From: Photorhabdus asymbiotica
Lineage (GTDB): Bacteria > Pseudomonadota > Gammaproteobacteria > Enterobacterales > Enterobacteriaceae
Reading direction: 5' to 3'
Assembly (NCBI RefSeq): GCF_003634575.1
Contig: NZ_RBLJ01000001.1
Location: 1,116,001 to 1,180,000 of the forward strand
Length of the DNA: 64,000 nt
Of the stretch, positions 10,997 through 26,341 are shown in pieces. A program made the position numbers and the translations under genes. Under the pieces are notes generated by a model. The model worked only from the letters and a program-made list of their open reading frames with translations, did no database searches and was not told where the DNA came from. How positions within the stretch are numbered: the first letter of the stretch is position 1; the number at the start of each line of letters is the position of its first letter.

Positions 10997-11341
10997 TCTG
11001 TCACTCTGATGACGATATTGAGGGCTTACCATTTGTCGGTGCTGAGGTTCTTCCAGAGGAAGTCCCTGAGTCCCTTCAATTTAGCGGCGAGACAGTCTTT
11101 TCGGCTGGTTAATTTCAGCCGCCAGTGTCCTTTCTACGGCGGGAATTTTACCTACAAGATCAGTACAGCTTTGCCCAGCGCACAGTTCACTACATTTTTC
11201 CTTTAGCGAGAAAGATGTCTGCTATAGCAACTGACCATCAAGACGGTAGCTTATTAGTTAAATCCAAGATTTATTCATACTGACACTAAAACACCTGTAA
11301 AAATAACTTTTTCAACAATATCACATTAAGTAATAAAACCA

Positions 11342-12556
11342 TTAAGCAACATATGGAAACACTATTTCATATATATATTCATACAGATTAACTTCATCCA
11401 AGATGATAAACGCCTTGATTGAATTACCAAACTCTAAATCAAAATCCCTTTTATCAACAATATTAATCACAATTTCAGCCGTACCGTTTTTTACGCCAAA
11501 TATAGTCTCAACCTTCCCTTTTATTGCCCCATACTTGAGATAATCATAAGCATCCATTTTTAATTCTACGCTCTGTCCAATTTTAATCTTTCTAATATAT
11601 TTTTCACTAACAACTCCTTTTGCTATAAAGTGATTACCATCAGGATATATAGTAAAAACCAACTCTCCTTTTTTTACCTGCTTAGGCCTGATGCCATTAA
11701 TATTATTAAACTCAACCTTACCATCAGCTTTTGCAATTCCTTCTATTCTCAACTTACCATTCTTTATACTCTCTATCCGTGTGTTTTTTACATTCAACTC
11801 TGAGACAAGAACAGAGAGTTCACCTCTTAACTGGTTAAGCTCCATATCTAACTCTTTATATTTGGTTGCTCCAATTATGTATCTACTCTGCTCATCATCT
11901 AAACTGTATTTTCTTTTCTCTAAGTCTAATATATCAGATTCAAGATTAATCAAGCCACGACGTGATGAAAATAATTCCATTTTATATTTAATAATATCTT
12001 TCGTGGATAAATAATTATTATTATGCTTTAACAATTTATCTACAAAATTCATCTGTTCTCTGTAGCTTTGACTAAAAAAATCATAGTCATCCCTATGGTC
12101 ATTCAAAATAGAGTCTATATTTTTTAATTCACTTTCATTTTTATTAAACTTAAAATCTTCATAATTTTTTTCAATCTTCATCCGTTCATAGACATTATCT
12201 ATATACTTTTCCATCGCATTAATTTTTGTATTATCTCGTTTTATATTTTGCAATAAAATAGATTCAGCCTCCTCTAAATCTGGATTAATCGCATTATAAA
12301 TAGAATCTCCTTTTTTAATCACATCACCATCACGAACATTATAATTTTTAATGTCTATATCCTTTTCTGCATAAAATAATACAGGTTCTGGTGCGGTTTT
12401 AATAAAAGCATTTTCTAAAACAACTCGCCTCTTTATAGTCACAACAAAAGATAAAGCAAAACATATAATCAGCAAAAAAACTGTTATACTTATAATTAAT
12501 TTATATTCTTTATGCAGTTCTGACTTAACTTCATTATTAGAGTTTAATTTATTCAT
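11342..12556 (-). CDS. HlyD/membrane-fusion-like adaptor of an ABC exporter
   Basis: 404 aa with one N-terminal membrane anchor (about residues 20-43), a short biotinyl-lipoyl-like half (FIKTAPEPVLFYAEKD...VRDGDVIKKGDSIY, residues 52-88), a long coiled-coil region (about 92-260), the second lipoyl-like half (GIAKADGKVEFN...VKKGELVFTIYPDG) and a beta-barrel end. This is HlyD/periplasmic adaptor architecture, though sequence identity with named members looks low. Its start overlaps the ABC transporter gene by 8 bp, so the two are one exporter unit. Very AT-rich, like the whole block to 26300. The substrate is unknown; I infer the product of this cluster. Confidence 0.75.
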   Translation of the reverse strand: MNKLNSNNEVKSELHKEYKLIISITVFLLIICFALSFVVTIKRRVVLENAFIKTAPEPVLFYAEKDIDIKNYNVRDGDVIKKGDSIYNAINPDLEEAESILLQNIKRDNTKINAMEKYIDNVYERMKIEKNYEDFKFNKNESELKNIDSILNDHRDDYDFFSQSYREQMNFVDKLLKHNNNYLSTKDIIKYKMELFSSRRGLINLESDILDLEKRKYSLDDEQSRYIIGATKYKELDMELNQLRGELSVLVSELNVKNTRIESIKNGKLRIEGIAKADGKVEFNNINGIRPKQVKKGELVFTIYPDGNHFIAKGVVSEKYIRKIKIGQSVELKMDAYDYLKYGAIKGKVETIFGVKNGTAEIVINIVDKRDFDLEFGNSIKAFIILDEVNLYEYIYEIVFPYVA

Positions 12557-14213
12557 TAAAAGCCTCTAGTTTGAAGAAATCATAGTCCTTTTCACTTTTC
12601 AACTCTAACACTTCATGATTTTCACAATCGATAGTAAAATCATGAGCGACATAGAATATAATACAACCTTCTTTTTCTGAAATTAATTTACTTACGACTT
12701 TAGCATTTTCATTATCAACTCCTCTAAATATTTCATCAAATATCAATACCGATTTATCTGACAGATAACCTCGTAAAAAGAGTAATACTTGTCTTTGTCC
12801 TTCAGAAAAGGGGTTAACCTTATCACTAATAACGGTATCTAGTTTTTCAGGCAGGCTATCTATTGTCTGCCATAAATTTAATTTTTTAAGCATACTCTCA
12901 ACTTTATTCCTATCAACGTCTCTTCCTAATGTAATATTTTCAATAATACTTGTAGTAAAGAGTATATCTTGTGGGAAGTATGCAGCGCATTGATTTATAT
13001 GAATTTCAGGCTTAATAGTTTTATCAGAAACATAAAAATTCACAGATCCATTTACAGGTGGAATCAAGCCAATCAAAGTCTTACATAAAGTTGTCTTACC
13101 AATACCATTCTGTCCTATTATTTTATATATCTTATTACTTTGAAAGGTAAGATCCGGAATTTTACAGACGATATTTCCATTAGTACCAATATGAAGATTC
13201 CTCACTGTAATTTCGTCTACACTAACAATATTATCATCTAATTCAGTATTCAATAAACTCTCATCTACAACATTATTCCCCATGAATTCTTTATACCTTT
13301 CAAGAGTAATACTTGATCTTTTCAACTCCATAAAAGAAACTAAAATCTGCATTGTATGTTTTAGAGACATTTCTGTAAAAGCAATTAATGTCAACATTAT
13401 ACCTAGTGAAAAACTACTATATCTAATAATGCTAATAACCATGACACATCTAATAACAGTACCAATGATTGTGTTAACTGTTAGAGTTTTACTTTTCACA
13501 CCAGCAACAAGTAATGCAACATTTTTCTCCCTATTCAAAAAATCATTCATCCTGTCAACACATCTATTCAGAATCCTGTTTCGATAATTATTGCCTCGTA
13601 TCGTTTCCCTTCCTCCAATAATATCATCCATAATTGAAAGAAAATTTGATTTAATTTTAAAACGCTGCTCTTCTAAAATAATCATTTTCTTGATAGACAA
13701 AAAATAGAGAACCACCAGCATAATTATTCCTAAGATCAAGAAGCTGACAACTAGAGGACTAACATATAGCACTATGATTGATAATATTAAAATCGTAACA
13801 AGCTTAACAATAATATCTATTAGCAGAGTCAAATAATACTTTTTAATATTTTGAGCATCATAAATCCTTTGAATCAATCCACCTTTATTATAATCATTCA
13901 ATATAGATAATCTTGTAGTAATCAAAGCAAGTAAATATTTATCTAAATAATAATAGTCCAAATATTTTTCCAGTGATGCTCTAAAGCGAGCAGTCAAATA
14001 AGTTAGTATCATATTGAATGATTCATATAATAAATAAGATATCATAAAGATAAATAAAAAACGCAAGTCACCTGATGATATAACCGCGTCAATCAGATAC
14101 TGCATAAAAAATGCAGCAAAAGAACTAATGACACTTAATAGTAAAGAGTATAGTAATAAAGATTTTATATAACCTGTCGCAAAGTTATCCTTCAATGTCA
14201 CATCCATTTTCAT
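12549..14213 (-). CDS. ABC exporter, fused permease/ATPase
   Basis: 554 aa. The N-terminal half carries five or six membrane helices (residues about 15-300). The C-terminal ATPase has Walker A (IIGQNGIGKTTLCK), an LSGGQ-like signature in the variant form FSEGQRQ, Walker B with catalytic Glu (SVLIFDEIFRG) and the H-loop (IIFYVAHD). There is no N-terminal C39 peptidase domain, which argues against export of a double-glycine-leader peptide. It is paired with the overlapping HlyD-like gene. A 25-bp sequence shared with the upstream region of another gene in this cluster lies 107 bp before its start. Confidence 0.85.
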   Translation of the reverse strand: MKMDVTLKDNFATGYIKSLLLYSLLLSVISSFAAFFMQYLIDAVISSGDLRFLFIFMISYLLYESFNMILTYLTARFRASLEKYLDYYYLDKYLLALITTRLSILNDYNKGGLIQRIYDAQNIKKYYLTLLIDIIVKLVTILILSIIVLYVSPLVVSFLILGIIMLVVLYFLSIKKMIILEEQRFKIKSNFLSIMDDIIGGRETIRGNNYRNRILNRCVDRMNDFLNREKNVALLVAGVKSKTLTVNTIIGTVIRCVMVISIIRYSSFSLGIMLTLIAFTEMSLKHTMQILVSFMELKRSSITLERYKEFMGNNVVDESLLNTELDDNIVSVDEITVRNLHIGTNGNIVCKIPDLTFQSNKIYKIIGQNGIGKTTLCKTLIGLIPPVNGSVNFYVSDKTIKPEIHINQCAAYFPQDILFTTSIIENITLGRDVDRNKVESMLKKLNLWQTIDSLPEKLDTVISDKVNPFSEGQRQVLLFLRGYLSDKSVLIFDEIFRGVDNENAKVVSKLISEKEGCIIFYVAHDFTIDCENHEVLELKSEKDYDFFKLEAFNE

Positions 14214-14319
14214 GCTAAATTCCTGGATAATATTAATATAATTTACAACAATGAAATAACCGTGAATTCAACAACAAGTTAGTTCATTATCCAATTAGAA
14301 AACCTAATTAAAATACATA

Positions 14320-14344
14320 TAGCACTATTTTGGAATATTATTTA
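14320..14344 (-). promoter_or_regulatory. Shared 25-bp upstream element, copy 1
   Basis: The sequence TAAATAATATTCC-AAAATAGTGCTA (minus strand) recurs with one mismatch at 20983-21007. Copy 1 starts 107 bp upstream of the ABC exporter ATG, copy 2 starts 108 bp upstream of the GT28-like ATG. The near-identical placement suggests a promoter or operator serving two transcription units. Copy 1 overlaps the stop codon of the nucleotidyltransferase gene. Confidence 0.5.
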
Positions 14345-15088
14345 GTTATCAACCACATTCAGTATGTTCATAATGCCCTGACTCACAAATTTTTCATCAG
14401 AATTTGTTTCACCACCAAGAAGCATAATAACCTCTCTATAAAGAAAATCTATTTCCTTAATTCTTGTTTCTATATGATTAGGGCTCATTGCCAGTGAGAA
14501 ATGCTCAGCAAAACTTTCATCAATATCTTTGAGCTGGCTAATCATTTTGCGAAAACCTTGCAGCCCCCAATGACGATGAAGTCTGATATAAGAATCTGCA
14601 ATATTGAGCAAAAACTTAGAACATGCAAATTCGAAAAATCCAAGGTCATCTTTCACTTGATGTACCTTCCGGTATAGGCTTTCAATTAGCAATGCACTTT
14701 TCCTTCTATTTTCTATAGAAAATGTTTCTACAATAGGCGACTCGACTATAGAATAGGTTTTTAGTTTCAATTCTCTTGCTATATTTTTATTATCAAAAAT
14801 AATCTCTGAATCCAACATATGCTTTATTGTTGGTCCATGCTTATAAGATAAAAGTTTTACTAAAGATTTTTCTGCCATATACCGAAGTTCAAATTCTACT
14901 TCACGATAGACTACCTTCTTTCTAAATAAATCAATTTCACTTCCATCTATAATAAGCAAGTCAATATCACTGCTTCCATTTTTATATTTACCTGTAAAAT
15001 ATGATCCATATCCAAGAATAGCTAAGACTTTTTCTTCTCTCTTTATTTTTTCTACAATTTCTTTTAAGCATTCTTTAATATCGTCCAT
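14342..15088 (-). CDS. Nucleotidyltransferase-fold (MNT/Pol-beta superfamily) protein
   Basis: 248 aa from the ATG at 15088, chosen because GAGAGG lies 5 nt upstream; a GTG at 15136 would add 16 residues without a good ribosome site. Residues about 26-50 contain LGYGSYFTGKYKNGSSDIDLLII, the GS...DxD metal-binding signature of the nucleotidyltransferase superfamily (as in aminoglycoside nucleotidyltransferases). The C-terminal half is helical and resembles the helical domain of such enzymes. It could nucleotidylate a sugar, lipid or protein. Position between GT genes and the exporter suggests a role in the cluster product or in self-resistance; this is inference. Confidence 0.65.
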   Translation of the reverse strand: MDDIKECLKEIVEKIKREEKVLAILGYGSYFTGKYKNGSSDIDLLIIDGSEIDLFRKKVVYREVEFELRYMAEKSLVKLLSYKHGPTIKHMLDSEIIFDNKNIARELKLKTYSIVESPIVETFSIENRRKSALLIESLYRKVHQVKDDLGFFEFACSKFLLNIADSYIRLHRHWGLQGFRKMISQLKDIDESFAEHFSLAMSPNHIETRIKEIDFLYREVIMLLGGETNSDEKFVSQGIMNILNVVDN

Positions 15089-15173
15089 GCTACCTCTCTT
15101 AGAGTATCTGTCACAAAAAATATAAAAATCATTCACTGGAAACTACAGCATATTTCACATCAAAACATTTCAA

Positions 15174-15983
15174 CTATTTTAACTCGATTTCATTCAGGTG
15201 AAATCGAACATCGTTAGGTTTGTTCATATACTCTGATAATGGTAAGTTACTCTTTATTGTATTTCGTAATTGATCTAGCTTCTTAATATAATTTAATCTA
15301 GTTTCTGATTGGAATCCAGTAACAGACGATGTGGTAAGAGAGCTTTCTCTTTCTATCTTTACATAGAGGGGACGGTTAATATTCCTGACCTTTACACAAT
15401 GAATAGCCCTAAGTAAAAAATCATCATCAGCAGCAATTCTAGTTGTACCATCAAAACCACCAAGGGTACGAAATATACTAAATCTAATTAACTGAGAAGG
15501 TTGAAAACTCAGATACTTCTTACCAAGTTGATGTGCAATATAAGGGATTCTATAAAATTTCTTAATGCGAAATGAGTTAACCGTATGGAAATTTTGGTAG
15601 AAATCTATATATGAAGAACCTAATATATCAATATGACTATTTTTGTTCATCAGATTATACAGGCAATCTAGTCTCATTGGTACAGAATAGTCATCTGCAT
15701 CATGAAAGGTTATAAATTCAGTATCAATTCTATTGATGATATCATTTTTCAATCGATAAGTCCCGACATTAACATCACTCCTAAACAACCTAATGTTTAA
15801 ATTAGTTTTACTTGCTAAATATTCTAAAACATATTGGAGCTGTATATAGTTGTCTTCTGATGAATGATCATCAGTAACTAAAATCTGCACATCACTCAAA
15901 CAAGTTCTCATTATAGACTCAATAGCACTAACAATAAGTATAGGCTGATTATAATGGGGGATTAGTACAGAAACTCTACTCAT
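15174..15983 (-). CDS. Family 2 glycosyltransferase
   Basis: 269 aa GT-A fold enzyme. The N-terminus MSRVSVLIPHYNQPILIVSAI and the metal-binding region FHDADDYSVPMRL (about residue 92) are GT2 hallmarks; a later LGGFDGTTRIAADDDFLLRA matches the acceptor-side D/ED motif. There are no membrane segments, so it is cytoplasmic, using a nucleotide-sugar donor I cannot identify. It lies 25 bp behind another GT2 in the same direction. AT-rich. Confidence 0.85.
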   Translation of the reverse strand: MSRVSVLIPHYNQPILIVSAIESIMRTCLSDVQILVTDDHSSEDNYIQLQYVLEYLASKTNLNIRLFRSDVNVGTYRLKNDIINRIDTEFITFHDADDYSVPMRLDCLYNLMNKNSHIDILGSSYIDFYQNFHTVNSFRIKKFYRIPYIAHQLGKKYLSFQPSQLIRFSIFRTLGGFDGTTRIAADDDFLLRAIHCVKVRNINRPLYVKIERESSLTTSSVTGFQSETRLNYIKKLDQLRNTIKSNLPLSEYMNKPNDVRFHLNEIELK

Positions 15984-16008
15984 GTGAGCTACTCATTTAA
16001 AATAATTA

Positions 16009-16899
16009 TCAGTTATTCAAATTACAATGAACACCTTCAACTACAACTCCAAATTGGCGAAATATCTTTATTAAATAATGTATGTACAGGTTTGGATGCC
16101 AAAAGAAAAAACCAATCCTCACAATAGTAAATGGGATAATGAGAGCAGTAATCCATACCTTACTCAGTTCATTATTATTAAATATCCTATAATTTGTTCT
16201 TCCTACTCTAAAACTTCTTTTTAATACCCAAAAAATATTTGCACGATTTTGGTCGTAGAATTCATAGGCCAGTGCATCACGGCAATAAAAACAGCTAATC
16301 CCAATTTGCTTTGCTCTATGGAAAAAATCCGTATCCTCTCCTCCTGTAACACCAAAATTCAAGTCAAACAGCTGCTCCTTCATCGATTCATATACTCGGC
16401 GTACAATAAATACATTACAAGTGCTGACATTTATATCTTTAGGATCTGATGCTAATAAGTCTCGGTAATAAAATGAAATTTTTTCCATCCATTTTCTTTT
16501 TTTATCCAAAAAAATAGGATAAGTGTTACCTTGTATCACATCAGCATTTGTCTGTATCTGGCATTCAATAAGTGCATCTAACCACCGAGAACTAACAATC
16601 TCATCATCATCAATCATAGCAACTGCATCGCACTTATATGTTTCAAAGGCCAAAGTTAACAGTATATTTCTAACTAATGAGATATTTTTATCTTCAACAA
16701 GAATGACATCAATATGGAAATTAAAATCATCTTTGATTTCATTGATCATGTTAAAAGACTCTTGCTGAGAAGAATCGTTATCTGCCACAATGACAGTATA
16801 GTTATTTAATGTCTCTAATTTTTCAATGGATTTCAATAAACGTAATAATGATGAACTACGTTTATAAGTAGGAATAAGAATTGCTATTTTCCGTAACAT
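16009..16899 (-). CDS. Family 2 glycosyltransferase, membrane-tethered
   Basis: 296 aa. GT2 start (IAILIPTYKRSSSLLRLLKS), DDD-type metal site (VAMIDDDEIVSSRWLDAL, about residue 96) and the downstream GGEDTDFFHRA motif are clear. A hydrophobic stretch near the C-terminus (about residues 245-270) may anchor it to the inner membrane. The ATG follows a perfect AGGAGG ribosome site. Likely transfers a sugar to a lipid-linked intermediate in this cluster; donor and acceptor are unknown. Confidence 0.86.
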   Translation of the reverse strand: MLRKIAILIPTYKRSSSLLRLLKSIEKLETLNNYTVIVADNDSSQQESFNMINEIKDDFNFHIDVILVEDKNISLVRNILLTLAFETYKCDAVAMIDDDEIVSSRWLDALIECQIQTNADVIQGNTYPIFLDKKRKWMEKISFYYRDLLASDPKDINVSTCNVFIVRRVYESMKEQLFDLNFGVTGGEDTDFFHRAKQIGISCFYCRDALAYEFYDQNRANIFWVLKRSFRVGRTNYRIFNNNELSKVWITALIIPFTIVRIGFFFWHPNLYIHYLIKIFRQFGVVVEGVHCNLNN

Positions 16900-16936
16900 C
16901 CATTACCTCCTAATAAATTTAACTATAATGAAGTCA

Positions 16937-17641
16937 TTATACTCTATCTTTCTGAATGTATTTTAAATTAAACGTATCTCTTAACCATTTAAAATCATTA
17001 ATGGTTGATAACAAGAATTCCATATTTTCAATATTTTCCTCATAAAAATGAGCAGCATCATTAGCTCCTTTTAATATCCAATCACCAAATTCTATCCGAG
17101 TATCAATTAAACTCCATGCCGTTAATCTTTCTTTACGGATAATATCTTCTTTAGGATTTTTCCTTGGTATACTGAGTTTTATACACTCTCGAAAAGCAGC
17201 TCTCCAGGAATGGAAACTACTTGTGTTAATAACTGTATCTGAAGCAACAATATTGACTACGTGATAATTAGGACTAAGAGATATGGTCATATCTCCAGAA
17301 AAACTTTTAACCTCCTGAAACAACATTTTATTAAATAATTTCACACCTCCATTCCCATAGCATAAGCGATTAACTGAGTTAACACTTCTCCATACATAGG
17401 CCGCAGTTGAGCATAAAGGTTCCACTGGTAACTCAAAATTAAACTCATCTCTAATTCTATTGTCTCCGTCTACAACAAAAAACCATTTAGCCATTACAGA
17501 ATCAGCAGCAACTTTATGAGCTTTTAAGATACCATTGACACCATGAATTCTTTTTGCATCAGGAAATCTATTTTTCAAATGATTCCAATTAGATTCAGCA
17601 CATGGTTCATCATAAGATATAAAAACAATGTCATATTTCAT
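16937..17641 (-). CDS. GT-A-type glycosyltransferase-like protein (phage-associated family)
   Basis: 234 aa beginning MKYDIVFISYDEPCAESNW, with AKRIHGVNGILKAHKVAA and a DxD-like FFVVDGDNRIRDEF. This N-terminal pattern is what I associate with glycosyltransferase-like proteins common in phages and some bacterial clusters; I cannot assign a substrate. It directly abuts the GT4 gene (that gene's stop codon touches this ATG) and has a poly-G ribosome site within the GT4 end, so the two are translationally linked. It could be regulatory or a true transferase. Confidence 0.65.
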   Translation of the reverse strand: MKYDIVFISYDEPCAESNWNHLKNRFPDAKRIHGVNGILKAHKVAADSVMAKWFFVVDGDNRIRDEFNFELPVEPLCSTAAYVWRSVNSVNRLCYGNGGVKLFNKMLFQEVKSFSGDMTISLSPNYHVVNIVASDTVINTSSFHSWRAAFRECIKLSIPRKNPKEDIIRKERLTAWSLIDTRIEFGDWILKGANDAAHFYEENIENMEFLLSTINDFKWLRDTFNLKYIQKDRV

Positions 17642-18862
17642 CTATATTCCCCCCTCAGCAAATCCATCATTAAGTATTATGTTAGCTAAATGTTTACTTT
17701 GAATATTAATATTGAAATCATTCATTATTTTTTGATGTGCATTCGTCCTTATAATATCTTTATCCTTTTTGCTCAACTCGTCTATATATGATATTTTTTC
17801 TGATAAATCTACAATATCTCCTTCATTGACAAGAAATCCATTGACATTATCTTCAATTAACTCAGTAATCCCACTATGGTAGGTAGACAAAACTATCTTT
17901 TTCATAGCCATTGCCTCCATTAATACCACCGGTATACCTTCCATGTCACCAGAGTGAGATGTTTTGGATGGAAGTATTAAAACATCTGCGTCTTTCATAA
18001 AATCTAAGACTATGTGATGGGGTTGAAAACCATGCATTTTTATATGTTCATTCAAATTAAGTTTTAATATTAATTCATAACAATATTCATCGAGTTCCCC
18101 ATCGCCAACAATGTCTAAAGCAAATGACACTTTACTGCTTATTCGTGCTAGAGATAACAATAAATCAGGCAATCCTTTTTTTTCTGTCAAACGGCCGACA
18201 AAAATTATCTTCATTTTTTCTTTATTAGATTCATTTGGATATAAAAATGAAAGAGCATCAATATCAACCCCCAGATGTAGCACCTCAACATTGGTAGGAT
18301 GACATCCTAGATTAATAATTCTATTACGCATATGTTCACAAACTGAAAAAATTTTATTTGCTTGGTCAAATAAAGTTCCATAATGACTTCCCAGATCACT
18401 AAGACTCTTTTCTTTAGTAATTTCATATGCATGTAATACACTATATAGTGCATTCTTAATATATCCATATTTTTTCAATTGTGCCGCCATGATACTAGCC
18501 ATACCAAAATGGCTTATAACGATATCATTAGATTTTATTTGTGACGGATTGGATAGAAATTTAAATAACAAGCGTTTACGGTAACAATTTCGTTTAAATA
18601 AACTCATTCGAGAAAATAAATAACCAGAGATTATAGAAAAATAAATGAATTTAAATATTGCATATATAGGATGAACGTTTTTTATATCTTCTAGACAAAC
18701 ATAGGGAATTATAGAATCATTGGCACAGATTGTATCACTAGATTTAGAAACAGATACAACTCTTACATTAAATCCTACTTTCTTCAAACTGATAATCTGT
18801 TGATGTACAAAAGCTTGTGTTAAGACTGGATATTCTTCAAGAAAAAAAACTATATCACGCAT
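17642..18862 (-). CDS. Family 4 glycosyltransferase (colanic-acid WcaL/AmsK-like)
   Basis: 406 aa GT-B enzyme. The N-terminal Rossmann half opens with IVFFLEEYPVLTQAFVHQQI, as in WcaL/AmsK-type enzymes. The C-terminal half holds IIFVGRLTEKKGLPDLL and the donor-binding EGIPVVLMEAMAM (E-x7-E motif). Cytoplasmic, retaining mechanism expected for the family. Its 5' leader contains an ERIC element (18882-19008) between it and the rhomboid gene, which would fold in the polycistronic RNA. Confidence 0.88.
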   Translation of the reverse strand: MRDIVFFLEEYPVLTQAFVHQQIISLKKVGFNVRVVSVSKSSDTICANDSIIPYVCLEDIKNVHPIYAIFKFIYFSIISGYLFSRMSLFKRNCYRKRLLFKFLSNPSQIKSNDIVISHFGMASIMAAQLKKYGYIKNALYSVLHAYEITKEKSLSDLGSHYGTLFDQANKIFSVCEHMRNRIINLGCHPTNVEVLHLGVDIDALSFLYPNESNKEKMKIIFVGRLTEKKGLPDLLLSLARISSKVSFALDIVGDGELDEYCYELILKLNLNEHIKMHGFQPHHIVLDFMKDADVLILPSKTSHSGDMEGIPVVLMEAMAMKKIVLSTYHSGITELIEDNVNGFLVNEGDIVDLSEKISYIDELSKKDKDIIRTNAHQKIMNDFNINIQSKHLANIILNDGFAEGGI

Positions 18863-18881
18863 AGAAGATCCTTTTCTTTTT

Positions 18882-19008
18882 CTACTCGTTATCTTTCAAG
18901 TTACCTCTTTGTTGGCTGCACTCACTCACCCCGGCCACAGAATTATCTATGCTCCCAGGGATTCGCCCCCTTGCCGTCGCGATGCATCTTGAAATCCATT
19001 GGGTATAT
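18882..19008. repeat. ERIC element (class A arms)
   Basis: A 127-bp imperfect palindrome with the ERIC core (GGCTGCACTCACTCACCCC...CTCCCAGGGATTCG) and ends resembling TATACC/GGGTATA. It lies between the rhomboid and GT4 genes inside the minus-strand cluster. Confidence 0.88.
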
Positions 19009-19130
19009 ATGGTTAAACAGAGCCACATTAACATAGAAATTATACTGTAATCTATTCCTTTAATTTTTATCACAGCGGGTTTCATAGAAAATCCTCACAT
19101 TATCAATTTATTCGTGGATAATTATTATTT

Positions 19131-19745
19131 TCAAATAGCAATATTATCAAAATAAGATTTATTTTTCCTATAGAAAAACAAACTCATTGTAAGCCCAATA
19201 CAAATAGAAAGAACATGGCCTGGCTTCGGGTAGTGAGCATAAATAAAATCTAGAACTATTGCCGGCAGCATGGAAAAAACAACAGCAAACTTTAATATAC
19301 TAGAGGTATGCTCTTTGACAAAAACCAACAGCAATGCAAAGGAGGATACGCCCAAAACAGCTTGTGATGCTCCCGTACCAATATTCCAAGGGTAACTAAC
19401 AAAGTTAGTGCTATAAAGAGTTCCCAAGGCACCAGCAGTAAACCATAAAACTAATAAAAATTTAGATCCAAGATGTTTTTCTAATAAAATTCCCAGTATG
19501 GAAAGTGATAGCACATTGTAGACCATATGCAGTTGTTTAACATGTATGAACTGAGAAACCAGAAGTCGCCAATACTCAAATTCATATAATCTATTTGGTG
19601 TTAATCCTCCATATTTCTCTAGATCTATAATACTCATTTTACCGATAAAGCTATCTGTTAATGAATATGAAACAAATGTGGAATAAACAATTGTCACACA
19701 TACTATAAATACTGTTGTTATAGGAACTTTTTTAATTTGGAACAT
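19131..19745 (-). CDS. Rhomboid-family intramembrane serine protease
   Basis: 204 aa with six membrane helices. Family landmarks are present: EYWRLLVSQFIHVKQLHMVYNVL (WR motif, then His and Asn of the oxyanion region), the catalytic serine in GTGASQAVLG, and the catalytic histidine in KPGHVLSI on the last helices. All catalytic residues are retained, so it should be active. A rhomboid inside a glycosyltransferase/ABC cluster is unusual; it may process an envelope partner or exporter component. It starts 22 bp after the GT28-like gene. Confidence 0.85.
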   Translation of the reverse strand: MFQIKKVPITTVFIVCVTIVYSTFVSYSLTDSFIGKMSIIDLEKYGGLTPNRLYEFEYWRLLVSQFIHVKQLHMVYNVLSLSILGILLEKHLGSKFLLVLWFTAGALGTLYSTNFVSYPWNIGTGASQAVLGVSSFALLLVFVKEHTSSILKFAVVFSMLPAIVLDFIYAHYPKPGHVLSICIGLTMSLFFYRKNKSYFDNIAI

Positions 19746-19766
19746 TCAATACTTCCTTCATAATCA

Positions 19767-20480
19767 TTACATGACATCATAAATTATATCAGATAAATCT
19801 TTAAGTGTAACATCTATATCATCAATTTTACTTGATTCTATGTTACGCTTAAAGTTAGTAACAATCTCAGGATTGTCCAACCATCTTTTTATTAAGCTAG
19901 GCCCATTAGATTGATTTTCAAAACAAAAACCAAATTTTCTTTTGTTTGTCAACTCTACTATCCACCTTTCCATTGGTAACCCAGAGAAATGTACTAAAAC
20001 CGGTAAATTGAATCTAATTGATTCCAATACTGTATTTGGACCAGATTTAGAGTATAGAAATGATCTGTTGTTTGTTGAAGCCTCTAGTGCCAACTTTAGA
20101 TAATCCTTATTAGCTAATGTATTATAAATATATGCTCTATCTGCATATTTTCTATTTAAATCTATGCATTCATCATACAATTTCTTATTCGAAACAATAA
20201 CCATGAAAATTTTAGGTTTCGAAGGATGTTCGAAAGAAGTTTTTAATACATCAAAGTAACCTTCTTCACATCCATTGCAGAGAATTAAAATAGAAGGAAT
20301 ATCCTTCTGCTCGATTTGATAATTTGAAACTGGCTTAAATAATGGAACAGTCTCTAATCTATGAAATTTTTTAACCATATCAGAATTTGGGTAATAACTT
20401 GTAGTTCTAATCGTCAAATCACTACTAAAATGTTGATGTATTTTAATATCTAACAAACCAGGATTAGTTATGAGGTTCAC
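19767..20480 (-). CDS. GT28/MurG-like glycosyltransferase, C-terminal half (frame broken)
   Basis: 237 aa from a GTG at 20480. It contains the nucleotide-sugar-binding half of a GT-B enzyme: SILILCNGCEEGYFDVL, then FLYSKSGPNTVLESIRFNLPVLVH, matching the SGxxTxxE-type donor-site motif of MurG and diacylglycerol galactosyltransferases. The upstream 132-aa frame is the missing acceptor half. Adding one A to the A8 run at 20512-20519 makes one continuous protein reading ...HAFKKKFDFDFKTVNLITNPG.... Either slippage makes the full enzyme, the gene is dead, or the read has an error. Confidence 0.75.
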   Translation of the reverse strand: MNLITNPGLLDIKIHQHFSSDLTIRTTSYYPNSDMVKKFHRLETVPLFKPVSNYQIEQKDIPSILILCNGCEEGYFDVLKTSFEHPSKPKIFMVIVSNKKLYDECIDLNRKYADRAYIYNTLANKDYLKLALEASTNNRSFLYSKSGPNTVLESIRFNLPVLVHFSGLPMERWIVELTNKRKFGFCFENQSNGPSLIKRWLDNPEIVTNFKRNIESSKIDDIDVTLKDLSDIIYDVM

Positions 20481-20875
20481 AGTTTTGAAATCAAAGTCGA
20501 ATTTTTTTTGAATGCATGGACTACTTTTGCAATAATGCCTTTTGTCGATATAATTAACGATGGAAAATCATTTTCAATGACACTCGATAATGATTCATTT
20601 AATACCTGCTCATTATTGAAATTACTAATCCATGAATCAATATCATCTATCAACTCATCATATAACTTCAATTTAATGTAAGGGGCATAGTAACTTGCAG
20701 CAATCTCTTGCATCCTTAATCCAAACTTGCTGAACACAGGCACTAATTCATCAAAACAGATTAGCTCTGCAGAAAAAATCTCTTTACTGGCTAGTTCTGA
20801 CTCAATTTTTTTTGCTGCTTCATAATTTCCTATTCTCCCCCAAGTTCTCATGCAAATAATCAATATCTTCTTCAT
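20477..20875 (-). CDS. GT28/MurG-like glycosyltransferase, N-terminal half (frame broken)
   Basis: 132 aa: MKKILIICMRTWGRIGNYEAAKKIESEL opens a GT-B acceptor domain, and FPSLIISTKGIIAKVVHAFKK is the end of that domain before the family's usual next strand. The frame ends at TGA (20477-20479) just after an A8 homopolymer, overlapping the next frame by 4 bp. It heads the second transcription unit of the cluster, 108 bp behind copy 2 of the shared 25-bp element. No strong ribosome site is visible. Confidence 0.72.
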   Translation of the reverse strand: MKKILIICMRTWGRIGNYEAAKKIESELASKEIFSAELICFDELVPVFSKFGLRMQEIAASYYAPYIKLKLYDELIDDIDSWISNFNNEQVLNESLSSVIENDFPSLIISTKGIIAKVVHAFKKNSTLISKL

Positions 20876-20982
20876 TTAAGTAATATCCCCACAGTAACTC
20901 ATTAAATAACGTTTCATAATTTTGCTACACATGGCCTTCTTCAACCCACTGTTATACATAGAATTATTGGTGGTATAAGATG

Positions 20983-21007
20983 TAGCACTATTTTGGAATC
21001 TTATTTA
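20983..21007 (-). promoter_or_regulatory. Shared 25-bp upstream element, copy 2
   Basis: Minus-strand TAAATAAGATTCC-AAAATAGTGCTA, identical to copy 1 (14320-14344) except for one base, and placed 108 bp before the GT28-like start codon. The surrounding 20876-21342 holds no gene I can support. Confidence 0.5.
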
Positions 21008-21342
21008 ATATAAATTCAAAATCTAATATAAATTCACAACTTTCACCTGATTGAGTTTTAATATATTTTCTAGGCAGGATTCACTATCTAATAGTATTAA
21101 TATATATGTTACAAAATTTCATCTAATTATCTAGTTGAACAACACGCACGATTAGCAACTAGAAAATAAAGTTTCTTGTTGTATGAATGATAAGTGCTCA
21201 AGATAAATTAATTGCAAATGGTCTCCGTAACCTTCCAATCAAGTCTTTAATTCATACTTCCTTATCGCACGAGCAAGCCCGTCCTTCGTGTACGGACCTC
21301 CCCGTACTCGTGATTCAAAGCAAGTTGTTGCAACATGATTCA

Positions 21343-21449
21343 TTCAAGCTCAGAAAGGACTATCTTCGATTTCATAAAAACAGGTGGAAAGTCAGATTAT
21401 CATATTACCCATTATAACAAGAATGCAGATAATTTATCTGATTAACTTA
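21343..21449. repeat. Long inverted repeat, left arm
   Basis: About 107 bp that recur in opposite orientation at 26342-26447 with a handful of differences (one single-base indel, a few substitutions). The arms flank the oxidase-idi-moeO5-GT2-radical SAM block. The stop codon of the oxidase lies in the edge of this arm. The origin is not recognised; IS or MITE ends are possible. Confidence 0.75.
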
Positions 21450-22832
21450 GTTCATTTCTATACTAAAAAAATCATAATTATTTACGATTCCTTTAGGATC
21501 CAGACGTTTCTTGAGTGCTAAAATTTTTATATAATCATCTCCATATATTTTTATTTTATCTTCATATTTCATTTCATGCCATCCCGCAAGATAAGGCCGT
21601 CCTTCATTTAAAATACACTCTTCTAATATTTGACTATGCAATAACTTTAATCTTTCATATTCTTCTCTTTCGCTTCTAGGAAACGTAAAGTACACCCCAA
21701 CCCCGAATACAATTCCACTCATTTTTTTTGATATTGGTTCGAAAGGAAAGAACTTACTTAAACTAGGACTTTTCTTTAAAATTATAAGAAGCCTACCTTT
21801 ATTCCTTATAAAAATGTCATTGTTAATTATTTTGTTTAATAGAAAATTAGCAAAAGCCATAATATTATTCTGATCAACACAATAATCTCCCCAAAGATTG
21901 ACATGCTCTCTATTCCAGAGATCATGCCTATAGGCACCAAATGTTCTTCCTCTATAATCACTTACTGAATGGTATTTGTAGCCTATACACCCTGTTACTT
22001 GACACTCTAATACCTTATTAATAATATTAGTCTGAACAGAATTATTGCTGAGAACCATATTAACATAGTATCTGCCTCGATATAATTGACAGGTGACAGC
22101 CTCAATATCCAGATTGGAATATTCAGATATAAGTATCAAAAAATTCAGTAAATGAAAAACCCCTTCAAACTCTATCACATAAAGTATGTTCTCTACTCTT
22201 AATGGGATTGCCTCAAAAGTCACATCTTCAATAATACCAAGTATTCCTAATGATACGAGTCCGAAATTATAAAGTTCTGAGTTTGAATCTTCTGAACATC
22301 TATGCCTTTTCCCATCAGGTGTTATTAGCGTATACGATTGAATACACGATGCTTGACTTCCATATAGATATGAATCTTCTCCATATCCACCAACAGAAAG
22401 TGTTCCTCCAACAGTCGTATCAGGATGCCTAGTCAAAATAGGAAATGATAAGCCATTTTTTCTCAAAAAATACTCAACAGACAACCATGTTTCAAAAGCT
22501 GAAACTTTAAACTTATACTCATCTATTTGTTCAAATACCGGATTTTCGACTGATACTACTAATACAATTCCCTTTGAAAGCGATTGTGTACCAAAAGAAT
22601 GCCCAACACCACGTATATTTACTGGTATCTCATTTATATTACAATAGTGAATTATATCTATTATTAAATTTGTATTTTTCACACAGACAACAGCAAGCGG
22701 TGATATTGAATACATTCCACCAAAGTTTGTACAAAATGTTGATAAATATTCTTCCGTCAATATAACAGAAACTCCACACAATTGACTAAGATCATTATAA
22801 ATTTTCTTTTTTTTATGCCAATTAGCATTCAT
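21447..22832 (-). CDS. FAD-linked oxidase, cytokinin-dehydrogenase-like
   Basis: 461 aa from the ATG at 22832; a TTG 39 bp further upstream is a weaker alternative. The PCMH-type FAD domain shows RGVGHSFGTQS, whose His is the covalent FAD-attachment position of the family, then HPDTTVGGTLSVGG and CSEDSNSELY...GILGIIE, the pattern of cytokinin dehydrogenases. The C-terminus has RLDPKGIV. Neighbours are prenyl-metabolism genes, so the substrate may be a prenyl- or sugar-bearing intermediate of the cluster, oxidised at an alcohol or amine. True cytokinin degradation is an alternative I consider less likely. Confidence 0.8.
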   Translation of the reverse strand: MNANWHKKKKIYNDLSQLCGVSVILTEEYLSTFCTNFGGMYSISPLAVVCVKNTNLIIDIIHYCNINEIPVNIRGVGHSFGTQSLSKGIVLVVSVENPVFEQIDEYKFKVSAFETWLSVEYFLRKNGLSFPILTRHPDTTVGGTLSVGGYGEDSYLYGSQASCIQSYTLITPDGKRHRCSEDSNSELYNFGLVSLGILGIIEDVTFEAIPLRVENILYVIEFEGVFHLLNFLILISEYSNLDIEAVTCQLYRGRYYVNMVLSNNSVQTNIINKVLECQVTGCIGYKYHSVSDYRGRTFGAYRHDLWNREHVNLWGDYCVDQNNIMAFANFLLNKIINNDIFIRNKGRLLIILKKSPSLSKFFPFEPISKKMSGIVFGVGVYFTFPRSEREEYERLKLLHSQILEECILNEGRPYLAGWHEMKYEDKIKIYGDDYIKILALKKRLDPKGIVNNYDFFSIEMN

Positions 22833-22964
22833 TATTCCAGCACCTAATTTTATTCTATAGTTAGAAAACAAGGTATACTTTTATGAAAACCTATCAAAAT
22901 AGAGGATATTTATTATCATGCAGACTTATATTATACCCTTGATTAAATTCTCTATACATTCTAA

Positions 22965-23495
22965 TCAGTACAATTTATCAAAGTAGTTCTGTAATATATC
23001 TGTCCACTCTTTCTTAAACCAAGGTGTACAAAACTCTTCATTATTATTAATGTATTCTTGGACATCTTTAATATTAATAAAAAATCCCTCTGATACTTCT
23101 TCTGGGTTTTCCATTGGTAGTGCATCAGTAAAAACAATAAAGACATGACATAATTCATGTTCATATCCTACATCTTTATATTTTTCTTTATATTGGAACT
23201 TATATATAAACTTTGGTTCTTCATTTATTACAATACCTAGTTCTTCTTCCGCACGTCTCATCACGGCATGAGAAATTTCTTCATCCGGTCTCGGGTGACT
23301 GCAATATGAGTTAGACCAATATCCGGGCCAGAGTAATTTAGACTGTGCTCTCTGCTGAATGTATACCTCATCTTTTGAATTAATAATAAAGCAGGAAAAG
23401 GCTCGGTGAAGATAATCACCGTCTAAATGAGCGTCAATCTTATTAATACATCCGACTCTATTATCATTCTCATCGACTAAAACAACATCTTCCAT
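22965..23495 (-). CDS. idi: Isopentenyl-diphosphate delta-isomerase, type I
   Basis: 176 aa Nudix-fold enzyme interconverting IPP and DMAPP. Active-site cysteine in NSYCSHPRPDEE and the Nudix-derived RRAEEELGI (metal ligands) are intact, as is the C-terminal TPWFKKEW. Organisms using the MEP pathway do not strictly need Idi, so a copy inside this cluster points to locally raised demand for allylic prenyl diphosphate. It lies 15 bp behind the MoeO5/PcrB-like gene and is preceded by GAGGAA. Confidence 0.93.
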   Translation of the reverse strand: MEDVVLVDENDNRVGCINKIDAHLDGDYLHRAFSCFIINSKDEVYIQQRAQSKLLWPGYWSNSYCSHPRPDEEISHAVMRRAEEELGIVINEEPKFIYKFQYKEKYKDVGYEHELCHVFIVFTDALPMENPEEVSEGFFINIKDVQEYINNNEEFCTPWFKKEWTDILQNYFDKLY

Positions 23496-23510
23496 ATTAG
23501 AAATTCCTCA

Positions 23511-24254
23511 TTAATATCTTCTTTCTTTATTTAATATGTTTATAGCATTGTTATTCCAATTGACTTCTTCAAATGTAGTTCCAATTGAAACAAAATCAGC
23601 ACCAGAATATAACAAGTTATCTACCTGCTCAGTGTTTGATATTCCTCCACTAACAAACAACAGTATATTATCTCCAACAAGAGATTTTACAAAACCGCAT
23701 ATTTCATTAGAAATTATACTGTATCTTGAATAAAGGTAAAAAACCTTCAACAAATTAAAATCTATACCTTCCAATGCTTTAGAAATACTTTCTGTTGAGT
23801 GATCTACAGTTTTTGAATAAACAAACTTTTGAGACTTTTTATCATTGCCTAGAACAAGAGCAGCAGAGCTGATTAAACAGTTGTCGCCATACTTTTCAAT
23901 ACTCTGCTTGATGGACTCTCTCTCTAATGATAAAGAGCTGTAGTATTCCATATTGGAATTTATCACTGATGTGGCAAAAAATGCATCTGCGAGAGGTGAT
24001 GAAGGAAATCCGTTTGGTTTCTGAGGAGGAAAATGCGTTATGATAGGGATGGTTTTAATCTTTGATGCAGCAGCTATAAAGGGAGCTACTTTCATTTCAA
24101 AGTTTTCACAATCCGTACTAGCTACTATACAAAAAGGAGCATATTTTTGAAATATTAATAATCTATTTATATTTATTTCATAATTAAATTTAAATGGATC
24201 GATAATAGGGATTATTGACTTTCTACATGAAGTCATATATTTGTAAATATCCAT
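23511..24254 (-). CDS. MoeO5/PcrB/GGGP-synthase-like prenyltransferase
   Basis: 247-aa TIM-barrel protein. IIPIIDPFKFN matches the phosphate/metal loop of the geranylgeranylglyceryl-phosphate synthase/PcrB superfamily (usual form IDPDK), and LLFVSGGISNTEQVDNLL with SGADFVSIGT is the C-terminal phosphate-binding part. ASTDCENFE, THFPPQKPNGFP and VFYLYSRYS recall MoeO5, which joins farnesyl diphosphate to 3-phosphoglycerate in moenomycin synthesis. The idi neighbour supports prenyl transfer. Acceptor (3-phosphoglycerate or glycerol-1-phosphate) and chain length are not determinable here. The MoeO5 resemblance is from memory and needs an alignment. Confidence 0.78.
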   Translation of the reverse strand: MDIYKYMTSCRKSIIPIIDPFKFNYEININRLLIFQKYAPFCIVASTDCENFEMKVAPFIAAASKIKTIPIITHFPPQKPNGFPSSPLADAFFATSVINSNMEYYSSLSLERESIKQSIEKYGDNCLISSAALVLGNDKKSQKFVYSKTVDHSTESISKALEGIDFNLLKVFYLYSRYSIISNEICGFVKSLVGDNILLFVSGGISNTEQVDNLLYSGADFVSIGTTFEEVNWNNNAINILNKERRY

Positions 24255-24289
24255 AGTAAACTCTATTTTAACGTTATTAATTTAATAAC

Positions 24290-25450
24290 CTAATTTGACA
24301 AAACAATTTTATTAATCAAATAAAGATTTTTTTCTTTCAAACTTTTAGTTTTTTCCCAAGAATATGCAGACCATGCTATTTCTCTTAACGGATTGCCTGA
24401 AAATCTTCTAATAAACAATTCAATCAATATGACTACATGCCATATTAAGAATATAAATTTAAATACACTTTTTATAATATTATCTTTAATAGATACATTG
24501 ATAAACATGGCTGGGAACAACCCATTGAACTGAACTTCTTTCAAATAATACAAGCACTTATCCAATGGATAATCAGCACAATAGACTACAGTGCTAATAA
24601 TGGATCTACGTATACGGAAATATGTATCTTTAACATTCCCTCCAACATAATGTTGACATATAGATTCCTCCACGATCCTCATATTATTTTGAGGATTTTC
24701 TAATTTCATGTCTAATAATTCAAAAAAGAAAAAACCATCATCACAAATATATCTAGCAGGAATCAAATTTTTTATTGATGAGACACCTACCATCATACAA
24801 CAGCCATGTGGATATTTTGTTTTCTTTGTAGACATTTTATTTTTAGCAAAATTCAAAAATTTTGAAGTAGGATATTTTTTCGGTGTCGGGTATTTCAATG
24901 CACCAGAACTCCCTATAAACTCTCTGCGGCGAAGATCTTCATACAGGTGTAAAAATGCATCATCAGATAGAATAACATCATCATCCATCCATCCAACTGC
25001 TGAACAGTTTATCCTTCTTGCTAAAAGAACCGTTTGATTTATTGAATATGCTTTGCTTCTGACATCTGTAAGAAACAGTATTAACTTGTCGTAAACCTCA
25101 TTTTCATTCAAAAGCTTTTGAACACTATCAATAATATCTTCTCTATGATTATAGTTAGACTGAATACTAACCATTAATACAGAATTAAATTTGATGCATT
25201 GTTCTATTCCTCTTTGAATTGCTTCTAATATCTCAGATTTATCACATCGCCCCCATAGTGTCGGCAACAATATGATACTATCTACATTTTTTATATAAGA
25301 TAATTGTGCACACTCCTTCAATTCTACTTCATAACAACACTCATCACTAAAATGTAAATATATATCTTTATGTTTCGAATAGTTCCAATTATTCCCTTTT
25401 ACATAACATTTGGATATTTGCTTTTGCATTACCTCAAATATATTCATCAT
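24290..25450 (-). CDS. Family 2-like glycosyltransferase with C-terminal membrane segment
   Basis: 386 aa from the ATG pair at 25450/25447, directly after the radical SAM stop and behind GGGGT; a GTG at 25480 is a weaker start. A GT-A core with CSAVGWMDDDVILSDDAFLHL (DxD metal site) and HGCCMMVGVSSI...CDDGFFFFELL is visible. A hydrophobic helix at about residues 323-340 suggests membrane association. The N-terminal 60 residues have no clear family match. Likely adds a sugar to the prenylated intermediate made by the neighbouring gene. Confidence 0.75.
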   Translation of the reverse strand: MMNIFEVMQKQISKCYVKGNNWNYSKHKDIYLHFSDECCYEVELKECAQLSYIKNVDSIILLPTLWGRCDKSEILEAIQRGIEQCIKFNSVLMVSIQSNYNHREDIIDSVQKLLNENEVYDKLILFLTDVRSKAYSINQTVLLARRINCSAVGWMDDDVILSDDAFLHLYEDLRRREFIGSSGALKYPTPKKYPTSKFLNFAKNKMSTKKTKYPHGCCMMVGVSSIKNLIPARYICDDGFFFFELLDMKLENPQNNMRIVEESICQHYVGGNVKDTYFRIRRSIISTVVYCADYPLDKCLYYLKEVQFNGLFPAMFINVSIKDNIIKSVFKFIFLIWHVVILIELFIRRFSGNPLREIAWSAYSWEKTKSLKEKNLYLINKIVLSN

Positions 25451-25451
25451 G

Positions 25452-26300
25452 TTATACCCCAACAAAATCACAATATTCACATATTCCGACTCTATTTCTA
25501 TTCTTTAATTGTGCTCTAATTTCATTTAAATTATTTGAATTCCATATCTCAAGAATGCTTTGATGGTTAAGATCTCCTATAATGGCTTCTTCCATCCAAT
25601 CCTGACAGCACAAAACAACAGTACCGCTGAATGTTATTGTGAGTTCAGTAAATGGTTTTACACATGAATTATTTAGAAATACCTTCTTTTTTTCACCAAT
25701 ATTTCCAGCACGATTTGTCAAGCTTTCATAGTCATTTCGTGTTACAAATATTAAATTATCAATAATATTCTCCTCCCATTTTTTTATTTTCTTCATTACT
25801 ATTTTATCATCAGTATAGTCATTCACTATTAACTCAGCATATTGACCGAGCTCCCTCGCAATTTCTTCCTTTAATAAGGAACCATTTGTCTGAATAACTA
25901 TTTTTGCATTTGTTTCATTTTTTATCTTTTTAGCCCAATCTATAATTCTCTTATCCATCAATGGCTCATTTCTAAAAAACAAACTAATATAACCATTAAA
26001 GTCTTTTAACTGCTCCACTATTTTATCAAATAATTCTTGCTGCATTTTCCCTTGTTTCATTTTGACTTTATTTGTGGGACAAAATGAGCAAGAATAGTTA
26101 CAGCCACTTCTTGTTTCTATTTGTATAATCTTAGGGAAATCTGGCACATCTAATTTACTACTTATTAATTTAGATAAAAATGACTCTATGAATTTTGATT
26201 TGATATACTTCCTATTTATACCACTAATTGTATTTAGAACACCTTTCCTTTTTATTCGACTAAAAATATAGCGGATTTTTTCTTTATTTATAACATTCAT
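25452..26300 (-). CDS. Radical SAM enzyme with SPASM-type C-terminus
   Basis: 282 aa. The 4Fe-4S/SAM motif is CNYSCSFC (C-x3-C-x2-C), followed by barrel strands (FFRNEPLMD, VIQTNGSLL). The C-terminal part, CVKPFTELTITFSGTVVLCCQDW ... IGDLNHQSILEIWNS ... CEYCDF, carries auxiliary cysteines as in SPASM/twitch proteins. Members in carbohydrate clusters oxidise alcohols or epimerise sugars; other members modify peptides. First gene of the minus-strand cluster, beginning 42 bp from the right arm of the inverted repeat. Substrate unknown. Confidence 0.86.
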   Translation of the reverse strand: MNVINKEKIRYIFSRIKRKGVLNTISGINRKYIKSKFIESFLSKLISSKLDVPDFPKIIQIETRSGCNYSCSFCPTNKVKMKQGKMQQELFDKIVEQLKDFNGYISLFFRNEPLMDKRIIDWAKKIKNETNAKIVIQTNGSLLKEEIARELGQYAELIVNDYTDDKIVMKKIKKWEENIIDNLIFVTRNDYESLTNRAGNIGEKKKVFLNNSCVKPFTELTITFSGTVVLCCQDWMEEAIIGDLNHQSILEIWNSNNLNEIRAQLKNRNRVGICEYCDFVGV

Positions 26301-26341
26301 CTTAGTAAAATATCCTCTTTATAAATTTTGACTCAATATGT

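Follow-up and report, generated by a model that had tools for sequence, protein, structure and literature searches.

Moenomycins inhibit peptidoglycan glycosyltransferases directly and at nanomolar levels, and the drawbacks that they show as drugs are attributed, tentatively, to the C25 lipid chain (PMC13096315). According to the accessible text of the same paper, the prenyltransferase MoeO5 of the moenomycin cluster of Streptomyces clavuligerus ATCC 27064, SCLAV_p1286, restores production in a moeO5 mutant, and a homologue, plu3366, lies in "an obscure gene cluster" of Photorhabdus luminescens that is distantly related to moe and whose product is unknown (PMC13096315, which refers for the cluster to a review and to Tobias et al. 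2017). Here we describe an operon of 14 genes, all on the minus strand, at positions 11342-26300 of a 64,000-nucleotide stretch of the genome of Photorhabdus asymbiotica, whose genus is insect-associated (contig NZ_RBLJ01000001.1, positions 1,116,001 to 1,180,000; the whole stretch is referred to as the window), which carries a relative of plu3366. We consider it probable that this operon directs the synthesis and export of a moenomycin-type phosphoglycolipid, that it was acquired horizontally and that it is preceded by an RfaH-type leader.

The initial annotation had called the cluster undescribed, which has to be corrected, as its existence is already known. The window and the plu3366 locus hold the same gene family and very likely represent the same cluster. 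The MoeO5-like protein of the window is 92% identical to the copy in another genome (G006, the source of locus L009), which is presumably that of P. laumondii TTO1, the strain of plu3366. The accessible text of PMC13096315 deals with the MoeO5 homologue alone; the remaining genes, the lesions, the leader and the operon in Vibrio are not listed there. A literature search, in which subscription journals were poorly covered, returned no other paper describing the cluster by title or opening lines. Within the reach of these searches, what is new is a shared core that goes beyond MoeO5, a Vibrio operon that is unbroken and under selection, a leader resembling JUMPstart, the link to BtrN and the lesions in the Photorhabdus copies.

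Kinship with the moenomycin cluster of Streptomyces clavuligerus

The 247-amino-acid (aa) protein had been annotated as a MoeO5/PcrB-like prenyltransferase, and we found that it is related to MoeO5 rather than to PcrB. In a sequence search of the PDB, it matched MoeO5 with an E-value of 6.2e-23 (84.9 bits), while the next match was at 0.0028 and the best geranylgeranylglyceryl phosphate (GGGP) synthase reached 20.6 bits. With a profile built from three Photorhabdus and one Vibrio sequence, MoeO5 was found at 7e-25 (91.1 bits) and the next match at 0.0025 (best GGGP synthase 20.5 bits). The concern that the protein might belong to an unrelated TIM-barrel family is thus dispelled. The stretches YLYSR, HFPP, DPFK and ASTD are common to this protein and the S. 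clavuligerus MoeO5. The three named relatives of its gene belong to P. heterorhabditis SF41 (99%), P. bodei LJ24-63 (93%) and P. thracensis (92%), which places the window in Photorhabdus. An AlphaFold model of the protein was mediocre (predicted local distance difference test, pLDDT, 54.5; predicted template modelling score, pTM, 0.61).

The protein might instead be an enzyme of PcrB/GGGP-synthase type whose product, a prenylglycerol ether lipid as in archaea, would be glycosylated afterwards. This would agree with the Pfam family PcrB (PF01884), whose gathering score the protein exceeds (39.9 vs 23.9 bits); the MoeO5 frame of S. clavuligerus, too, is a weak match to PcrB (17.6 bits). It would also agree with the glycine that Plu3366 carries at the position of the phosphate-contacting Asn230 of MoeO5 (PMC13096315). 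The window protein has G204 and N207, the residues named for Plu3366 in the accessible text of that paper. We nevertheless regard such an enzyme as very improbable and rejected a plain PcrB/GGGP synthase, because MoeO5 is far ahead in the PDB searches and the NCBIfam cut-offs for GGGP synthases are far from reached (45.3 vs 247, 42.6 vs 113 and 28.7 vs 162 bits). As Gly204 takes the place of Asn230, the acceptor of the enzyme could differ from 3-phosphoglycerate.

The relationship extends beyond the prenyltransferase. Four cluster proteins, the MoeO5-like protein and three designated GT2a, GT28-like and GT2c after glycosyltransferase (GT) families, were used as tblastn queries against 72,556 plasmid records, with the unbroken copy of locus L008 (L008:11322-12428) standing in for the GT28-like gene of the window. 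The MoeO5-like protein (E 8e-17), GT2a (E 6e-36) and the GT28-like protein (E 7e-24) each matched 3 plasmid records only, all from S. clavuligerus. GT2c matched 63 records, with S. clavuligerus first at 1e-23 and the next organism at 9e-13. The partners of all four queries fall inside one stretch, L011, of plasmid pCLA1 of strain ATCC 27064. L011 also encodes an epimerase, a B12-type radical SAM protein, an aminotransferase-family pyridoxal phosphate (PLP) enzyme and ATP-binding cassette (ABC) proteins, and its MoeO5, in a part of the record that carries no annotation, is presumably SCLAV_p1286. The presence of MoeO5 and the three other partners in a single stretch is hard to explain unless part of the pathway goes back to a common ancestor.

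This kinship with moenomycin-cluster proteins supports the assignment of GT2a and the GT28-like protein as putative glycosyltransferases. The GT28-like gene of the window has no Pfam match of its own, and its L011 counterpart shows weak GT-B matches in Pfam; this counterpart appears to sit where the moe gene order would place MoeGT1, the first sugar transferase. The L011 counterpart of GT2a is labelled a putative glycosyltransferase because of the weak GT2 match of GT2a (E 0.0085). PDB searches with the GT28-like protein and with the Vibrio copy of GT2a returned nothing of use. Like the moenomycin clusters (L011 and the moe genes of S. viridosporus), the operon thus combines a MoeO5-type prenyltransferase, a GT28-like protein, GT2a, GT2c and ABC proteins. 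Unlike L011, it also encodes an isopentenyl-diphosphate isomerase (Idi), a BtrN-like radical SAM protein, a vanillyl alcohol oxidase (VAO)-type oxidase, a rhomboid protein, a GT4, GT2b, a nucleotidyltransferase and an HlyD protein, for which L011 holds no match.

Gene content, leader and predicted pathway

The gene list of the initial annotation proved essentially right: the main open reading frames (ORFs) lie at the coordinates and on the strand that it gave, and their families are supported by Pfam and NCBIfam searches of the cluster ORFs (Table 1). Structural relatives were sought by sequence searches of the PDB. The unit comprises 14 genes because a frameshift turns one GT28-like gene into two ORFs; the label of this gene gained support from its kinship with a moenomycin-cluster protein, and the break in the window copy could not be seen in the initial annotation. 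Of the six or more glycosyltransferases that had been claimed, three are clear by Pfam (GT4, GT2b, GT2c) and up to three more are weaker. The operon block is far from a chance assembly, as the same order and strand recur in Vibrio and its guanine-plus-cytosine (GC) content is low (30.5%, compared to 43.5% in window 1-10000, 42.6% directly to the left and 34.5% directly to the right). Further low-GC stretches are present in the same window.

Table 1 Features of the operon, its leader and the variable segment around it, in window coordinates.
Feature	Position	Strand	Support
Radical SAM protein with C-terminal SPASM domain, BtrN-like	25452..26300	-	Pfam SPASM 8.3e-15, Radical_SAM 1.8e-12
GT2a, GT2-like	24290..25480	-	Pfam GT2 E 0.0085, sub-threshold
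MoeO5-like prenyltransferase, 247 aa	23511..24254	-	PDB MoeO5 3vk5 6.2e-23; Pfam PcrB 4.3e-10
Type-1 isopentenyl-diphosphate isomerase (Idi)	22965..23495	-	NCBIfam NF002995 158.6 bits (cut-off 127), TIGR02150 135.1 (105.8)
VAO-type FAD-linked oxidase	21447..22871	-	Pfam FAD_binding_4 1.8e-25
GT28/MoeGT-like gene, first part	20477..20875	-	Broken by frameshift in A-run
GT28/MoeGT-like gene, second part	19767..20480	-	Unbroken frame of ~370 aa in relatives
Rhomboid-family membrane protein	19131..19745	-	Pfam Rhomboid 3.5e-16
GT4 glycosyltransferase	17642..18862	-	Pfam Glycos_transf_1 7.4e-36
234-aa protein, possibly GT-A	16937..17641	-	Contains VVDGD; no significant family match
GT2b, GT2 glycosyltransferase	16009..16899	-	Pfam 5.9e-15
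GT2c, GT2 glycosyltransferase	15174..15983	-	Pfam 8e-16
Pol-beta-type nucleotidyltransferase	14342..15136	-	Pfam Polbeta 1.3e-6, NTP_transf_2 1.4e-5
ABC exporter, membrane and ATPase domains	12549..14213	-	Pfam ABC_tran 5.5e-19, ABC_membrane 1.7e-7
HlyD-type periplasmic adaptor	11342..12556	-	Pfam HlyD_3 3.7e-10
JUMPstart/ops-like leader, 41 nt, conserved	26480..26520	-	Contains GGTAGCGT at 26482-26489
Second ops-like site	26572..26605	-	GGTAGCGT at 26573-26580; Rfam JUMPstart 17.4 bits, E=0.66, weak
Genus-variable segment holding the operon, approximate limits	10538..27040	.	Homology to operon-free genomes

Two proteins of the operon are candidates for tailoring. The radical SAM protein matched two BtrN sequences only in the PDB at E ≤ 0.01 (best 6.3e-22, residues 57-281). 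BtrN, the 2-deoxy-scyllo-inosamine dehydrogenase of butirosin, is a cyclitol dehydrogenase; as the nearest solved relative, it is the basis from which we infer the function of the window protein. The flavin adenine dinucleotide (FAD) protein matched cytokinin oxidases (3.6e-14), DprE1 (2.5e-5) and xylitol oxidase (7.6e-5) in the PDB and TIGR01678 at 1.5e-20, below the cut-off of that family; it falls among the VAO-type oxidases, in the vicinity of DprE1 and of the lactone and cytokinin oxidases. Both proteins would fit an oxidation of sugar hydroxyls. For the rhomboid protein and the nucleotidyltransferase, our guesses are that nucleotidylation protects the producer itself or that a building block is activated. 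The 234-aa protein, which had been described as a phage-type GT-A protein, has no significant Pfam, phage or PDB match. Its best PHROGs match was at E 0.055, with a phage glycosyltransferase at 0.22, and we therefore dropped the phage label. The protein is 81% identical between the window and Vibrio, and its AlphaFold model reached a pLDDT of 32.5.

Taken together, the gene set suggests the following pathway, of which every reaction, the order of the steps and the target are predicted. Idi would support the prenyl supply by providing dimethylallyl diphosphate (DMAPP). The MoeO5-like enzyme would couple 3-phosphoglycerate, or a comparable phospho-triol, with a prenyl diphosphate, and the first sugars would be added to the phosphate by the MoeGT-like GT28 protein, GT2a and GT2c. 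Extension of the glycan would fall to GT4 and GT2b, perhaps with the 234-aa protein, and the VAO-type oxidase and the radical SAM enzyme related to BtrN would oxidise sugar hydroxyls. The ABC exporter and the HlyD adaptor would carry the product across the envelope, and the product would most likely act outside the cell by inhibiting the peptidoglycan glycosyltransferases of competitors.

Upstream of the radical SAM gene, we found a 41-nt element that is 90% identical to the Vibrio leader (E 6.8e-11). Each of the five leaders compared has it, with GGTAGCGT at its end in four cases and GGTAGCAT in the fifth. The Vibrio leader matches the Rfam JUMPstart model (RF01707) with E=0.0024 (26.6 bits), and the 41-nt copy of the window fell short of E 1 with this model. 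The second ops-like site is also present in L005 and was not found in L008, L009 or Vibrio. The motif GGTAGCGT occurs twice in the window, both times at the leader and on the operon strand. Since 0.73 occurrences are expected and 20 of 100 shuffled sequences also had at least two, we place weight on position and conservation, not on the count. An rfaH gene is present in the genome (above its cut-off), and the conservation of the leader across Photorhabdus and Vibrio suggests that the operon is under RfaH control. Like the RfaH/JUMPstart operons of enterobacteria, it has a JUMPstart-like sequence with an ops motif upstream of a long one-strand operon. Unlike them, its product is not a known lipopolysaccharide (LPS), capsule or secreted protein, and the Rfam gathering score is missed.

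JUMPstart leaders mostly precede surface-glycan operons, and this likeness would also fit a cell-surface lipoglycan, in which prenyl-phosphoglycerate anchors a short glycan on the outer surface instead of forming part of a released antibiotic. The number of glycosyltransferases, three clear and up to three more, points the same way, as does the resemblance of the ABC protein to the lipid or glycolipid flippases MsbA (E 9.9e-20) and PglK (3.1e-19) in NCBIfam, a resemblance that it shows to many other ABC families as well and that stays below the cut-offs throughout. We consider a lipoglycan unlikely, however, because the cluster ORFs include no polymerase, ligase or O-antigen-type ABC-2 exporter family (Pfam/NCBIfam), the exporter is paired with an HlyD adaptor, and the core enzymes are those of an exported antibiotic.

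Conservation in Vibrio and damage in Photorhabdus

The MoeO5-like gene was found in 4 of 12 Photorhabdus genomes, one of them with a remnant containing stops. The whole operon recurs in the same order in 1 of 227 genomes of a genus identified as probable Vibrio by a LuxR-type probe from Vibrio, which reaches 92-93% identity in this genus and no more than 75% in other matching genera. Vibrio proteins are also named beside those of Photorhabdus in a network legend in the accessible text of PMC13096315, and a figure legend of that paper sets Actinomyces and Actinoplanes next to Photorhabdus. From radical SAM to HlyD, the Vibrio operon spans 14.3 kb with a GC content of 29.6%, compared to 47% in its flanks, and we saw no break in it. 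Window and Vibrio proteins are 74-87% identical, and the ratio of nonsynonymous to synonymous substitution rates (dN/dS) is 0.10-0.30 for all 14 genes, the L008 copy replacing the frameshifted GT28 gene of the window. This implies that all parts were kept under selection together over the divergence of Photorhabdus and Vibrio. Rather than being scattered, as the initial annotation had feared, the cluster is thus co-conserved in both genera. Directly after hlyD, the Vibrio locus encodes a 286-aa ORF on the same strand without a Pfam family (L014 7079-7939), which may belong to the operon there.

Searches in other groups gave few relatives. In the family sample, 9 of 392 genomes matched, two of which were Photorhabdus and seven of which showed partial matches of 17.6-21.6 bits in genomes of 0.4-0.9 Mb and were set aside. 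In the order sample, the only match among 394 genomes was our own genome, with nothing convincing beyond it. A PF01884 search across the class matched 152 of 369 genomes, 37 above the cut-off, and among the matches listed nearly all were short and near the C-terminal end; we did not use this search, since our own genome was unmatched and the matches were short and C-terminal. No relative was found in viral contigs with two peptide patterns. The genus nearest by RecN, presumably Xenorhabdus, lacked the gene in all 30 genomes, and we set Xenorhabdus aside as a carrier. For X. budapestensis XH-4, the accessible text of PMC13208338 lists a region that antiSMASH labels "phosphoglycolipid".

In contrast to the Vibrio operon, all five Photorhabdus copies compared (window, L005, L008, L009 and L010) carry lesions. 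In the window, the GT28-like gene is frameshifted in an A-run, and the same frameshift is present in L005, while the gene is one frame of ~370 aa in L008, L009 and Vibrio. L005 additionally has a stop in the radical SAM gene, and its GT4 frame ends after 62 residues, near the contig end. In L008 (P. bodei), ~100-bp inserts end the abc gene after 158 of 554 residues and the nucleotidyltransferase gene after 231 of 264. In L009 (G006), inserts with DDE_3 transposase ORFs end abc after 364 residues and GT2c after 109 of 269. L010 (P. thracensis) is a remnant only, most of the cluster being lost. In this comparison, hlyD lies outside the L008 stretch and partly inside the L009 stretch. The exporter and a glycosyltransferase gene are hence broken in G006, which, if this genome is that of TTO1, would offer a simple reason why the product of the plu3366 cluster stays unknown.

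In view of the GT28-like frameshift, the pathway of the window strain may be off or crippled. Carried further, the lesions in all five copies and the absence of the MoeO5-like gene from 8 of the 12 Photorhabdus genomes would be consistent with a relic, once functional and spread between species, that is now decaying and yields no selected product in the window strain. We regard this as quite improbable. The dN/dS values argue against a relic, although they mostly reflect the past. In addition, the window copy has a single frameshift, its other 13 genes are equal to the Vibrio lengths, longer, or at most 8 residues shorter, and both halves of the broken gene are open and overlap by four bases.

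The moenomycin-like reading put forward in the initial annotation is strengthened by the identification of MoeO5 and by three more proteins that have their best or only plasmid relatives in S. clavuligerus; we grade it as likely but unproven in product and activity. Several observations weigh against it, among them the lesions in all five Photorhabdus copies, the glycine at the Asn230 position and the usual clientele of JUMPstart leaders. The RF01707 gathering score (35) was reached neither by the Vibrio leader (26.6) nor by the second site of the window (17.4). Besides the four partners and an ABC protein, no cluster protein paired with L011 ORFs of at least 120 codons at E 5; GT4, GT2b and the 234-aa protein are among those without a partner. 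Pfam assigned no family at E 0.01 to the L011 counterpart of GT2a. No prenyl-synthase family was detected among the cluster ORFs (Pfam/NCBIfam), no search being aimed at MoeN5 itself; the full ORF without a family, the 234-aa protein, has no PDB match either. A B12-dependent enzyme of MoeK5 type is likewise missing, as the radical SAM protein of the window has a SPASM and no B12 domain and does not pair at E 5 with the B12-binding radical SAM protein of L011. MoeE5-type or other sugar epimerase, carbamoyltransferase, amidotransferase and A-ring families are absent from the cluster ORFs (Pfam/NCBIfam). Finally, plu3366 failed to complement a moeO5 deletion (PMC13096315). This failure in Streptomyces is separate from the lesions, and a different acceptor or chain may lie behind it.

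As a tentative and more specific proposal, the operon could represent a separate Gram-negative branch of phosphoglycolipid antibiotics, a prenyl-phosphoglycerate oligosaccharide with a short chain and sugars oxidised by radical SAM and flavin enzymes, controlled by RfaH, exported by a dedicated ABC-HlyD pump and encoded in one cassette that moved between Photorhabdus and Vibrio. The short chain is proposed because no MoeN5 was found. The damage to the Photorhabdus copies would explain why no product has been seen from such a branch.

Surroundings of the operon and implications

Homology to three Photorhabdus genomes without the operon (G003, G008 and G009) ends at 10537-10538 and restarts at 27041. 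These are three of the eight genomes without the MoeO5 gene. In all three, the same neighbours, an ankyrin gene and a DUF6622 gene, enclose one other gene (L037 14092-15348, L038 4049-5410 and L039 14128-15540); Pfam was run on the first, which is MFS_1, and the other two are similar by eye. The cluster DNA is mostly 94-98.6% identical to L008 and L009 (one L009 piece 91%, leader pieces 90-91%), compared to 85-88.5% in the right-hand flank, which implies an exchange of the cluster between species at a time after the divergence of that flank. L005 shows little contrast (cluster 95.7%, flank 93.7%). No integrase family was found among the cluster ORFs (Pfam). Horizontal acquisition is a probable part of our best explanation.

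Repeats lie within the operon and at its edge. Five genes, radical SAM through FAD oxidase, are enclosed by a 95-nt inverted repeat (21355-21449 and 26342-26436, 95% complementary). The genome has no copy besides these two, and G005 carries a relative close to a DDE_3 transposase ORF (L040). We set aside a working invertible switch, since no second arm was found at the L008 junction and one arm is split in L009; the repeat is probably a mobile-element remnant. Repeats of ~105-130 bp resembling miniature inverted-repeat transposable elements (MITEs) occupy the gaps 18879-19010 and 20903-21007 and recur in related Photorhabdus loci and inside the abc gene of L008.

Beside the segment, an ankyrin-repeat protein adjoins a lipase-like protein at 27063-28682 (Lipase_3 E 0.003, below cut-off). 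Both genes are present in L005, L008, L009, L037, L038 and L039, not whole in L010, and are less conserved than ung. In a second low-GC stretch of the window, a Fic/DOC protein is encoded (46655-48472) together with a GNAT acetyltransferase and a protein of YhfG type, Fic-YhfG being a known toxin-antitoxin-like pair. In a third, positions 60671-61417 encode HphA-type haem-binding protein domains.

If the operon makes a moenomycin-type product, a second, Gram-negative pathway that shares the MoeO5/MoeGT core only would reveal the essential parts of this chemistry, and a different lipid and sugar pattern might be on offer. The place to look for it would be the unbroken Vibrio operon and not the damaged Photorhabdus copies, and what is found there would bear on the product of the plu3366 cluster.

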